Source: Pyrobaculum sp. 3827-6
GTDB taxonomy: Archaea; Thermoproteota; Thermoprotei; Thermoproteales; Thermoproteaceae
Direction: 5' to 3'
NCBI RefSeq assembly: GCF_025641885.1
Contig: NZ_JAOTQN010000004.1
Span: 62,001 to 126,000 of the forward strand
DNA length: 64,000 nucleotides
Made by a program: the position numbers and the translations under genes. Positions 27,093 to 32,632 of this stretch are shown one piece after another. How positions within the stretch are numbered: position 1 is the stretch's first letter; each line of letters begins with the position of its first letter. The notes under the pieces were generated by a model, which had not been told where the DNA came from, made no database searches, and was given only the letters and a program-made list of their open reading frames with translations.

Positions 27093-27485
27093 CTACTTTT
27101 CCTTTAGGTCCCTTTTCTTTATTTTGATATAAATTATCAACGGCACAGATAGCATCACAAACGCTAAGAAGAATATGAGCAATGTAAATGACACAAAGCG
27201 AAGTAGAGCTAAATCATTGAATAGCGCCAACCACGATAATACCATACCAGTAACCCAAACGGCACCAACGGCAAAGTCGGATTCAATAGACCCCCTACAT
27301 CTAAAAAATCCTCCTCTTCTGAAATCTAGTGTGAAATATAAAACTACCGCTGTCACTCCTACCAATAATAGGCCCAATGCTGAGTAAAACGACATATTTG
27401 AGCGATATATATTACCAGAGAGAAGTCCAAGCAAAAATATAGCTAAAAAAAGGATACCCATTACCAGAACATTATGACACCTCAT
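27093..27485 (-). CDS. Four-helix membrane protein, candidate immunity protein
   Basis: 130 residues with four predicted membrane helices (about 6-24, 34-52, 71-89, 95-120) and a basic, charged C-terminus (KIKKRDLKEK). It begins 33 bases after the stop of the large Cys-rich precursor and lies in the same AT-rich stretch, so the two are probably co-transcribed. Small membrane proteins directly behind bacteriocin precursors often confer self-immunity or help export. That role is inferred from position only; no family is recognised. Confidence 0.75.
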   Translation of the reverse strand: MRCHNVLVMGILFLAIFLLGLLSGNIYRSNMSFYSALGLLLVGVTAVVLYFTLDFRRGGFFRCRGSIESDFAVGAVWVTGMVLSWLALFNDLALLRFVSFTLLIFFLAFVMLSVPLIIYIKIKKRDLKEK

Positions 27486-27518
27486 GTCTTAGCACTAAGT
27501 TGCTTCCTTATATAGTTT

Positions 27519-28544
27519 TCATCTTAGACAACAATAATACGCTTGTTGCGCCGCATAAACACATATACCCACCCCCAGTGCACATAGTACACAACCAGCC
27601 AAAGATGTCCCCACGCACAATAAACATGTCCATGCTGTGAATATATTAATACATGCCCCGATGCAAGGTATAAGCTGGGCGCATAAAGGACAGTATCCCA
27701 GCAGTGCTGAGTCCCCGAGGGCACATGCTATTAAGTTTCCTATAGAAGCTACACAACAAATCAGGTCAAAATCAGTTACAATTGCCACTGTAGGTGCTTT
27801 TCCGTTATACTGCGGCATTTCCTTCTCAATGAATTTAGCTAGTTTGTTGAGTTCCTTGTATGCGATATCCCATGCTCTTGGACTGTCATTCTTTACTTGC
27901 TTTAATGCATTTCCTATTATGCGATAACTATCAGCAAGAGTTGTAGCGTTTCTTATTATTATAATCTCGGTAGCTGTTACATTCTTTTTGAAAGGCGTTG
28001 AATCTATTCTTGTATAGAATAGAGAATACTCACCGTTAGGCTTTGTATAGATTATTGTAATAGTTGTAAAGTTGTAGTGACCAGGCTGATCTCTACCCAC
28101 CACCTTATAAACCAGCACATAGAAGGTAAAGTTAACAGTACCATTTGTGACAATCACTTTACCGAAGGCAAGGCTATAATTACCAACACCTTCAACCCAA
28201 GTTTTGTTTACTATTACATTTACATTATAACTGATTTTAAGGTTACTGCTAGTGATATTAACATTACACTTAGCATTAGTTTTATTAATTTCATAATGTG
28301 TGAAGTTATATTTTGTTAATATTTCAGTTAACGAAGTAATATTATAGAAGGGTTTTTGTTTTTCATCTAGAGTTACTTGAATAAGGTGGCCGTTCAGTTT
28401 GAGATCTTGCACGACCCCGCCAGCGAATGTGGTATACTGACCTCCAAATATTATTAACAACAGTAGCATCGCCTTGGCTAGCTTTACAACGGATGTAGGC
28501 TTTGCGGCGGTTTCTATTCTTCTTATCTTTTTTAACGCGTTCAT
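27519..28544 (-). CDS. Secreted precursor with Cys-rich hydrophobic tail, halocin C8-like architecture
   Basis: 341 residues. Residues 1-42 form a secretion signal with a basic n-region containing twin arginines (ALKKIRRIETAAK) and a hydrophobic core, so export by Tat or Sec is possible. Residues 45-250 are a beta-rich extracellular domain with many Asn-x-Ser/Thr sequons. Residues 256-341 are hydrophobic and hold 14 cysteines, with paired CC at both ends (DLICCV, YYCCLR) and C-x2-C motifs. Halocin C8 is likewise a Cys-rich peptide cut from the C-terminus of a larger Tat-exported precursor whose N-terminal part gives immunity. I infer a similar processed peptide. The promoter and signal start lie in a 147-bp inverted repeat shared with the small-peptide gene at 31346. 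Confidence 0.8.
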   Translation of the reverse strand: MNALKKIRRIETAAKPTSVVKLAKAMLLLLIIFGGQYTTFAGGVVQDLKLNGHLIQVTLDEKQKPFYNITSLTEILTKYNFTHYEINKTNAKCNVNITSSNLKISYNVNVIVNKTWVEGVGNYSLAFGKVIVTNGTVNFTFYVLVYKVVGRDQPGHYNFTTITIIYTKPNGEYSLFYTRIDSTPFKKNVTATEIIIIRNATTLADSYRIIGNALKQVKNDSPRAWDIAYKELNKLAKFIEKEMPQYNGKAPTVAIVTDFDLICCVASIGNLIACALGDSALLGYCPLCAQLIPCIGACINIFTAWTCLLCVGTSLAGCVLCALGVGICVYAAQQAYYCCLR

Positions 28545-28645
28545 GAGACCGTGACCATCTGTTTTTTAAAGATTCACCATTTTTTTTGTAATACTTTTCC
28601 GCTAAGTTTATAAAGCCACATTTTTCCGCCTTATATGTTAAAAGG
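28499..28645. repeat. 147-bp inverted repeat, left copy
   Basis: Matches the reverse complement of 31245-31391 without gaps and with only about ten differences. It holds the first 15 codons and promoter of the Cys-rich precursor on the minus strand (TATA-like GTTTTTTAAAG), and in the other direction a second TATA box TTTATAAAG followed by ATGTTAAAAGG, a copy of the start of the 31255 gene. That rightward frame stops after ten codons, so it is a remnant here. The repeat is therefore a whole duplicated divergent promoter. Confidence 0.92.
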
Positions 28646-28658
28646 GGACACGGCGTGT

Positions 28659-28859
28659 GCTCCTTAATAATGACAATGTCTATGTAGTGCTCGGGTAGCT
28701 CTAGGCGGCGGACAGTAGCTCGCCCAGCGCTTCGAACGAGACTGCGGACACTGCCAAGTCCAGATCGCCAGCTTCTGTGCCTGACGTATCTGAGCCGAAG
28801 AGAAAGGCAAATCTAGCATAGCGCCCCCATGGCAATGTCTGCAAAGCCTTTAGAGACAT
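28659..28859 (-). pseudogene. Remnant of an MNT-like nucleotidyltransferase
   Basis: From ATG 28859 the frame reads ALQTLPWGRYARFAFLFGS, then DTSGTEAGDLDLAVS, the GS-x10-DxD motif of minimal nucleotidyltransferases, and stops at a TAG near 28712. A shifted frame then gives LPEHYIDIVIIKE, matching the expected third-aspartate strand. The gene is frameshifted and cut off at the inverted repeat. It lies in the 340-base gap between the precursor gene and the surface-protein gene. Confidence 0.65.
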
Positions 28860-28884
28860 CTCGTATGGCCTCCGACTCACTTTT

Positions 28885-30948: not shown

Positions 30949-31255
30949 ACACGCCGTAGAACACCGCCCAGTAAAGAGCGTTTACAGCCGTAAATAGAAT
31001 TAGGCCAGTGGTTAGATTCATCCCAACCACCTCGACTTTTCCAATGCCTAAGAGGAGCGGCAGTATAAACAGTGATGTGGTTACGGCGAATCCCACTGCG
31101 GCCACGTACAAGCCTCCCTTCCTCCCCAGCGCTAGGTCTAGTATAACCCCCAGCAGTATATAGAGGAACCCACCGCCTACCGACTCTAGTTTAAATCCAC
31201 TCATTACAATGTTTACTGCAAGTACCGCAAGCCCCGCAATTAAGCCTTTTAACAC
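30920..31255 (-). CDS. Four-helix membrane protein, promoter-proximal gene of the surface-protein operon
   Basis: 111 residues with four predicted membrane helices (about 3-20, 27-43, 49-70, 80-101). It starts with GTG 31255, 26 bases after the palindromic TATA box TTTATAAA in the right inverted repeat. It is divergent from the small Cys-peptide gene and overlaps the surface-protein start. Role unknown; a partner or anchor for the surface protein, or an immunity protein for the peptide, are both possible. Confidence 0.75.
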   Translation of the reverse strand: MLKGLIAGLAVLAVNIVMSGFKLESVGGGFLYILLGVILDLALGRKGGLYVAAVGFAVTTSLFILPLLLGIGKVEVVGMNLTTGLILFTAVNALYWAVFYGVYELAGRYLH

Positions 31256-31391
31256 ATGAGACGGAAAAATGCGGCTTTATAAACTTAGCGGAAAAGTATT
31301 ACAAAAAAAATGGTGAATCTTTAAAAAACAGATGGTCATGATTTCATGAACGCGTTAAAAAAGATAAGAAGACTAGAAACCGCCGCAAAGC
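31245..31391. repeat. 147-bp inverted repeat, right copy
   Basis: Inverted partner of 28499-28645. It contains the divergent promoters of the 111-residue membrane protein (leftward; TTTATAAA, GTG 31255) and of the small Cys-rich peptide (rightward; TTTAAAAAA, ATG 31346), plus the first 15 codons of the peptide leader. The 2.6 kb between the copies could be inverted by recombination, exchanging the promoters. Confidence 0.92.
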
Positions 31392-31534
31392 TTGCACCCG
31401 CACTAATGCTAGGAGCGACGCTACTGGCCGGCCAAGCGCTGGCTGGAAATGTACAGCCAAATACCATATGCATTGAGGGAGTTGGCTGTATAGGGATTTG
31501 CTTCCCAATAGGTCCAGTTCTTGTCTGCCTCTAA
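31346..31534 (+). CDS. Small secreted Cys-rich peptide precursor
   Basis: 62 residues. The first 15 (NALKKIRRLETAAK after Met) are the same as in the 341-residue precursor except for one residue. A hydrophobic core and ALAG at 31-34 suggest cleavage after residue 33 or 34, leaving a 28-residue peptide with four cysteines (42, 48, 52, 61) in a hydrophobic, Gly/Pro-rich frame (CIEGVGCIGICFPIG). That is the profile of a peptide antibiotic or signal. ATG 31346 is about 23 bases after its TATA-like box. An FtsX-type permease gene follows 93 bases later on the same strand. Confidence 0.75.
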   Translation: MNALKKIRRLETAAKLAPALMLGATLLAGQALAGNVQPNTICIEGVGCIGICFPIGPVLVCL

Positions 31535-31627: not shown

Positions 31628-32632
31628 GTGTTGTCGCTCTATCAAATATATTTGAGGGAAAGAAGGGGGTCAGTTGCGGCGTTGTATGTTTTGTCTCTGC
31701 TTGGGTTTCTGGCGTCTGTGGCTGTGGTGGCGTTTTGGTCCATTGGGGGGAGGCTGGGGGAGGAGTTGAGAGCCCAGCTGGGCGCCGGTACTGTGGTGGT
31801 GGCGGGCGGCGACTTTACAGACGGCGACTTGGCCAAGGCCTTGTCACTCGGCTGTTTTTCAGAGGGGTATGGCGTCTCTTTCCTCCAGGGGGTTTTGGTG
31901 CTCCCAAACGGCACTAGGCGCGGCGTCGTGGTGGGGGCCGTGCCCGGCGGCGTGATGGGCGCCTCGGGCGCGGCGGCTACAGCCTTTAGCCTAGTGGCGG
32001 AAAGGGGGGACGTCGTTATGCTGGAGGTAGAGGGGCGCCTCGTTAGGCTTTTTGTAAACTCGACATTTACGCGTATGTTCTCCCTCATGGGTCTCTCTGC
32101 TGACGTCTATGTGGATAGGTCTGTGCTGGGCGTGGGGAGGTACGGCGCCTTGATTCTCCGTAAAGCTGGGGGAGGTGGCTGTCTAGAGGGGCTTAGGGCG
32201 CTGTTTCCCAAGGCCGCTGTGCTGGACTCGGACTCTTTTATCTCTGCGCTGTGGGGGCAGTTGCTGGTGTATCTGGCGGCTGCAGGCCTCGTGGCGGTGA
32301 GTGTGGTGACCGCCGTCGCGGCGTTGATATACACCTTATCCACCACCCTCTACTTCCTCCATTTCAAGGAGTTCGCCGTGTTGAGAGTGCTGGGTTTGAA
32401 GAAGCGGGGCCTTCTGGGGCTTGTCTCGCTTCTCTTCTTCACCCCCGTCGCCGCCGGCGTCTTGACGGGTGTCCCCATTGCCCTGGCCGCCGCGGCTAGC
32501 TCCGGCTTGGACCCCGCTCTGAGCGTTGGCCTACCGGCGGCGGTGCTCCTGGCCTCTTCTACCCTGGCGTCTCTGCCCGCGCTGAGGCGCCTCTACGCCT
32601 TGTCGCCAGCGGCGGCTCTCCGCTACGAGTAG
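31628..32632 (+). CDS. FtsX/MacB-type ABC permease without a neighbouring ATPase
   Basis: 334 residues: one N-terminal membrane helix (16-40), an extracytoplasmic domain (about 45-205), and three C-terminal helices (about 212-238, 256-285, 295-315) ending LRRLYALSPAAALRYE, a hallmark of the FtsX/MacB family. These permeases do mechanical work on envelope substrates or help expel peptides. No ATPase is adjacent, so the partner must be elsewhere. It starts with GTG 31628, 24 bases after CTTTAAAAAG. Position next to the Cys-peptide makes export or resistance a plausible but unproven role. Confidence 0.85.
   Translation: MLSLYQIYLRERRGSVAALYVLSLLGFLASVAVVAFWSIGGRLGEELRAQLGAGTVVVAGGDFTDGDLAKALSLGCFSEGYGVSFLQGVLVLPNGTRRGVVVGAVPGGVMGASGAAATAFSLVAERGDVVMLEVEGRLVRLFVNSTFTRMFSLMGLSADVYVDRSVLGVGRYGALILRKAGGGGCLEGLRALFPKAAVLDSDSFISALWGQLLVYLAAAGLVAVSVVTAVAALIYTLSTTLYFLHFKEFAVLRVLGLKKRGLLGLVSLLFFTPVAAGVLTGVPIALAAAASSGLDPALSVGLPAAVLLASSTLASLPALRRLYALSPAAALRYE

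Follow-up and report, generated by a model that had tools for sequence, protein, structure and literature searches.

What is the function of a gene pair in Pyrobaculum that encodes a secreted protein with a tail crowded with cysteines and, directly behind it, a small membrane protein? The pair lies in the stretch of DNA that was analysed, 64,000 nucleotides of the Pyrobaculum sp. 3827-6 genome (the window). An earlier note took the secreted protein for an archaeocin precursor built like that of halocin C8, in which the N-terminal part is the immunity protein. No paper linking Pyrobaculum with halocin C8 was found in a literature search and, according to PMC10105419, halocins and sulfolobicins were the only archaeocins described before the lanthipeptides of that study. 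The locus is probably a bacteriocin (archaeocin) cassette of two genes, in which the toxin tail is exchangeable.

The precursor gene (27519..28544, minus strand) encodes 341 amino acids, comprising a signal region, a conserved carrier domain (the N-domain) and a tail with 14 Cys. The signal region and N-domain (residues 1-256; 27777..28544, minus strand) are conserved across Thermoproteota. The tail, which is the presumed toxin module, was originally placed at residues 256-341 and is better bounded at residues 257-341 (27522..27776, minus strand). Reading of the open reading frames (ORFs) confirmed the rest of the original description. The protein is a secreted precursor with 14 Cys in the terminal region, which contains CC pairs (263-264 and 338-339) and C-x2-C motifs (285-288, 307-310 and 318-321), and a gap of 33 bp separates its gene from an ORF of 130 amino acids with four hydrophobic segments. 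The tail has 1 Lys/Arg and 3 Asp/Glu; the Cys residues of the whole precursor occupy positions 93, 263, 264, 274, 285, 288, 294, 298, 307, 310, 318, 321, 328, 338 and 339. The Cys density of the tail is far above chance for this genome: Cys makes up 0.66% of the residues in the remaining gene-like ORFs of the window, which gives a binomial P of 7e-16 for 14 Cys in 85 residues, and no other 85-residue stretch of these ORFs has more than four. No significant match was found in Pfam and NCBIfam for the precursor, its 130-residue neighbour or a 62-residue peptide encoded nearby, in any known bacteriocin family for the tails, or in a sequence search of the PDB. AlphaFold2, run on three sequences, gave an uninformative model with a mean pLDDT of 34.

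A search with the single sequence in 45 genomes of the same order found clear relatives in Pyrobaculum oguniense TE7 (CP003316; G032) and in another Thermoproteaceae genome (G040), whose N-domains are the nearest to that of the window. Scanning of genome contigs with the precursor sequence alone matched nothing, and scanning with an alignment matched P. oguniense TE7 only; no relatives were found among viral contigs, plasmids and phages. By profile search with a larger alignment, the N-domain is present in 22 of 398 sampled Thermoproteota genomes (14 with the earlier profile), and several precursor loci each occur in G218, G291, G373 and G397. The P. oguniense copy of the precursor has a single frameshift. 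The layout is recurrent and consists of a signal region, an N-domain that usually has a CxxC motif, a conserved helical stretch leading to a Y-N/D motif, the tail, and then a small transmembrane (TM) gene. In nearly all members the tail is about 55-110 residues long and contains 8-20 Cys and 0-4 Lys/Arg. Three members (G000:C1:9597-9962, G027 and G287) have Cys-poor tails, Gly-rich or aliphatic, which are attached to the same kind of carrier and likewise followed by a TM gene. The first of these, L102, is the second precursor of the window genome; its tail is Gly-rich and nearly Cys-free and is followed by a TM gene of 112 amino acids. About eight members (L052, L057, L082, L086, L097, L087, L091 and L103) have an N-terminal rhodanese-like region in the precursor, recognized by Pfam where tested (E 7.6e-16 and 4.7e-14), by NCBIfam for some and from the sequence for the others. 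In G373, a separate rhodanese-like ORF is located directly upstream of the precursor. The N-terminal rhodanese-like region suggests that sulfur chemistry may be tied to the Cys-rich tail.

The N-terminal part of the window precursor is 48-59% identical to those of G032 and G040, whereas the tail is just 26-28% identical, with 20-22 identical positions, 10 of them Cys. Among the relatives compared, N-domain identity is 48-61% where that of the tails is 26-38%. The similarity of N-domains, tails and TM proteins was also scored as z against shuffled sequences. The window N-domain matches G032 (z 118) and G040 (z 91), and its tail is at background level against theirs (z about 1). The tails closest to that of the window are found in other families of the phylum, in G324 (z 18), G243 (z 14) and G330 (z 8), on N-domains remote from that of the window (z 4-14). 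The tails of the window, G324 and G243 have 22 invariant columns in common, including CPLC-x-Q and IFT, and a profile made from tails only recovered the same set again, together with a decayed copy in G218. Similarly, G292 and G291b have close tails (z 26) on remote N-domains (z 7). Tails therefore apparently move between carriers. The conserved N-terminal region is joined to exchangeable C-terminal modules, as in polymorphic toxin systems. The proposal that the protein is an archaeocin-like precursor ending in a Cys-rich module of antimicrobial type gains support from these homologues, which retain a tail of 8-20 Cys that is variable in sequence and exchanged between carriers.

The gene for the four-TM protein behind the window precursor (27093..27485, minus strand) is presumed to encode the immunity protein. 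A small TM ORF, a short gene called by hydropathy only, is located directly downstream on the same strand in about 22 of the 24 precursor loci with sequence available. In a mechanical scan of the 53 gene-like ORFs of the window, only the precursor has a small multi-TM ORF immediately behind it on its strand (0 of 52 others), and in the homologous and comparison loci such a neighbour was found behind 2 of about 102 other genes. A candidate immunity gene directly downstream of a putative toxin gene is also a feature of polymorphic toxin systems. The window TM protein resembles that of G330 (z 6.0), the tail of which is also related (z 7.9). Downstream of the P. oguniense precursor, a second and broken TM gene is related to the window TM protein as well (E 0.0012; z 8.0). 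The window protein has no resemblance to the first TM genes of G032 and G040 (z 0.2). The TM protein near the decayed window-type tail of G218, examined as a case of immunity tracking the tail, is unlike that of the window (z 2.3), so that G218 gives no support for such tracking. Across all pairs, the TM proteins covary weakly both with tails (Spearman 0.19) and with N-domains (0.24), and because of this weak overall covariation the tail-specific pairing of immunity is only partly borne out. The downstream TM proteins of G032 and G040, seemingly homologous by eye, turned out to be unrelated by BLAST, with a weak shuffle z of 3.5. A DsbB/VKOR-type redox partner was also considered as the identity of the TM protein and was rejected, given that the TM proteins mostly contain 0-2 Cys.

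In several genomes the TM gene has outlasted the precursor. The G029 neighbourhood is syntenic with the window, and its neighbouring proteins are 88-99% identical. About 1 kb spanning most of the precursor is gone, and the leftover piece of the tail has several stops. The TM gene of G029 is intact and 91-92% identical to that of the window, with dN 0.045 and dS 0.139 (NG86; one close pair with few substitutions). The precursor remnant, aligned with gaps, retains 71% identity, and the DNA next to it 94%; since the divergence of the remnant exceeds the synonymous divergence of the neighbours (about 0.09-0.14), the G029 tail probably diverged before or during the decay. In G039, a TM gene of 121 amino acids close to that of P. 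oguniense (z 52) is kept beside a precursor remnant, and three further loci in G218 have kept the TM gene and lost the precursor. Such retention is what a dedicated immunity gene predicts. The TM protein, which varies by locus, is thus a better candidate for the predicted immunity function than the N-domain. The N-domain is the conserved part while tails are swapped and is therefore not a tail-specific immunity domain, so that the role first assigned to it is disfavoured. The variation and exchange of tails, the diversity of the TM genes paired with them and TM retention together form the signature of a polymorphic bacteriocin with putative separate membrane immunity.

In the cassette proposed here, the signal region would direct the precursor outside the cell via the general export route, and the conserved N-domain would serve as a carrier that holds the tail harmless and aids its folding and disulfide formation. 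Proteolysis outside the cell would free the tail as a disulfide-rich peptide of 8-9 kDa. The freed tail, in which Cys and small hydrophobic residues abound and Lys/Arg are almost absent, would exert its toxicity by inserting into the membranes of related archaea, and the small TM protein in the membrane of the producer would guard against the producer's own tail type. The tail also scores by hydrophobicity as several TM-like stretches, and a protease site was not identified in the precursor; both points would agree with a permanent membrane anchor, or a disulfide-hardened surface structure, of an envelope protein that has the TM protein as its membrane partner and frees no toxin. This alternative is unlikely, however, as 8-20 Cys are needless for an anchor, an anchor is expected neither to be the fastest-changing part of the protein nor to be exchanged between carriers of different families, and the TM gene outlives the precursor.

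Variable secreted proteins encoded beside variable membrane proteins are known from the hypervariable Ig modules of Thermococcales (PMC8416519). That system has a layout similar to the present one, and a non-toxic pair for self/non-self recognition or adhesion would also account for the patchy distribution of the family. Short, almost uncharged Cys- or Gly-rich tails nevertheless fit membrane-active peptides more than binding domains, and a protective role accounts better for the orphan TM genes, which makes a recognition pair distinctly improbable.

The bacteriocin cassette was compared with halocin C8 using halocin C8-like precursors fetched for the purpose and a HalC8 query sequence, which was validated by its TIGR04449 score of 61.5 bits (positive control). 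The originally proposed likeness of design held as regards the Cys-rich C-terminal module on an exported precursor. In halocin C8 of haloarchaea (ProC8, TIGR04449) the exported precursor is about 280-340 amino acids long and ends in a Cys-rich peptide low in Lys/Arg, and just downstream of it, three halocin C8-like plasmid loci have a small gene that encodes a hydrophobic segment. Membership in the halocin C8 family was not supported. The search of the tail with the halocin C8 model, which had been suggested as a check, was negative: TIGR04449 (halocin_C8_dom) gave no match to the window protein, G040, G032 and the remote members scanned, G292 having an E of 0.91, far below the cut-off. Comparison of the Thermoproteota family with three halocin C8-like precursors by hhalign gave a probability of 0.3%, and the shuffle z of HalC8 was 0.9 against the window tail and -1.1 to 3.4 against the family tails. 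Since no homology is detectable in the tail or the N-domain, the precursor cannot be shown to belong to the halocin C8 family. Halocin C8 also has 10 Cys compared with 14 in the window tail. The window precursor differs further by the lack, on inspection, of a Tat-type signal motif, by an N-domain that is unrelated by profile comparison and by a separate multi-TM candidate immunity gene, and the tails of its family differ between close relatives. By analogy, the precursor would function in the manner of a halocin C8-type archaeocin, with a modularity in the style of polymorphic toxins. A highly diverged true halocin C8 family member with an N-terminal HalI-type immunity domain would share the exported precursor of about 300 residues, the Cys-rich module and the small downstream gene, but is very unlikely in the face of the negative TIGR04449, hhalign and shuffle results. 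Elsewhere in the same order, a Cys-rich ORF of G013 (L036:1369-2344) ends in CQKSGLCC, scores 19.6 bits against the halocin C8 cut-off of 24 and is followed by an ORF with hydrophobic segments; it may be a genuine halocin C8-like gene of Thermoproteales.

Several other known systems resemble the cassette in part. Polymorphic toxin systems of bacteria and archaea (PMC3482391; Makarova et al. 2019, cited in PMC8416519) have a conserved N-terminal carrier, exchangeable C-terminal modules, adjacent immunity genes and orphan fragments. They differ in that the tails here resemble small peptides rich in Cys or Gly instead of nuclease-type toxin domains, and that the carrier is short, with no match in Pfam. 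Class II bacteriocins (PMC6957408) also combine a short peptide of membrane-active type with a small multi-TM protective protein encoded alongside, but employ a short leader peptide and a dedicated exporter, whereas here the peptide terminates a large exported carrier. HFX_0892 of Haloferax mediterranei (PMC12893001) is likewise a secreted precursor and is activated by extracellular proteolysis; its active piece, however, is the N-terminus, acting through alpha-helices, and the abstract mentions no paired immunity gene.

The same carrier with different tails across relatives in the phylum suggests an undescribed family of archaeal weapons, although its priority is uncertain. The halocin C8 family was reportedly extended to diverse archaea by Makarova and colleagues in 2019, and some proteins of the present family may therefore already be listed. 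If the family is real, antagonism by secreted peptides would be spread through Thermoproteota, hyperthermophiles included, and would be a source of disulfide-rich peptides that are heat-stable and novel in sequence type. Two ideas become testable, namely that tail swapping and membrane immunity drive competition in hot springs, and that such precursors have a carrier, not an immunity protein, as their N-terminal part.

The beginning of the window precursor gene is part of a duplicated element, which the earlier note does not mention. Its promoter, 5' leader and first codons (146 bp, including TTTATAAA; 28500..28645, minus strand) are 95% identical to those of a small-peptide gene (31245..31390, plus strand). 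These two copies, in opposite orientation, are the only ones found in the genome and could permit promoter sharing or inversion via recombination. They flank about 2.6 kb that encode a 687-residue CARDB-domain protein and a TM protein of 111 residues. The peptide gene itself (31346..31534, plus strand) lies 2.7 kb from the precursor gene and encodes a secreted peptide of 62 amino acids, with a mature part of about 28 residues and 4 Cys, that belongs to a Pyrobaculum family ending in C-L with four Cys. The extra N-terminal residues of the window precursor, MNALKKIRR...AAK, are missing from the G032 and G040 precursors, which makes the peptide gene the probable source of the copied element. Relatives of the peptide occur in G029, G027, G033 and P. 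oguniense; the copies in G033 and P. oguniense look damaged. The peptide genes of the window and G029 differ at 9 positions, all of them in the second half of the gene, with the leader unchanged (P about 0.0009), and 6 amino acids are changed; such a pattern, in small numbers, is as seen in peptides under diversifying pressure. The peptide is likely a co-regulated partner of the precursor, either a second antimicrobial or a signal peptide. An FtsX-type permease gene (31628-32632) adjoins its gene.

A fuller picture can be offered tentatively and with considerable doubt. In it, archaeal bacteriocins would form a phylum-wide and as yet undescribed family, and the dedicated carrier, sometimes fused to rhodanese and usually with its own CxxC, would escort and oxidatively fold interchangeable Cys- or Gly-rich tails, with tail-specific membrane immunity; in Pyrobaculum, the copied promoter and leader would tie expression to that of the 4-Cys secreted peptide as a partner or signal.

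Between the genes for the 687-residue protein and the precursor, an apparent remnant of a nucleotidyltransferase-like ORF (28660-28860, minus strand; containing FLFGSDTSGTEAGDLDLAV) was noticed by eye.
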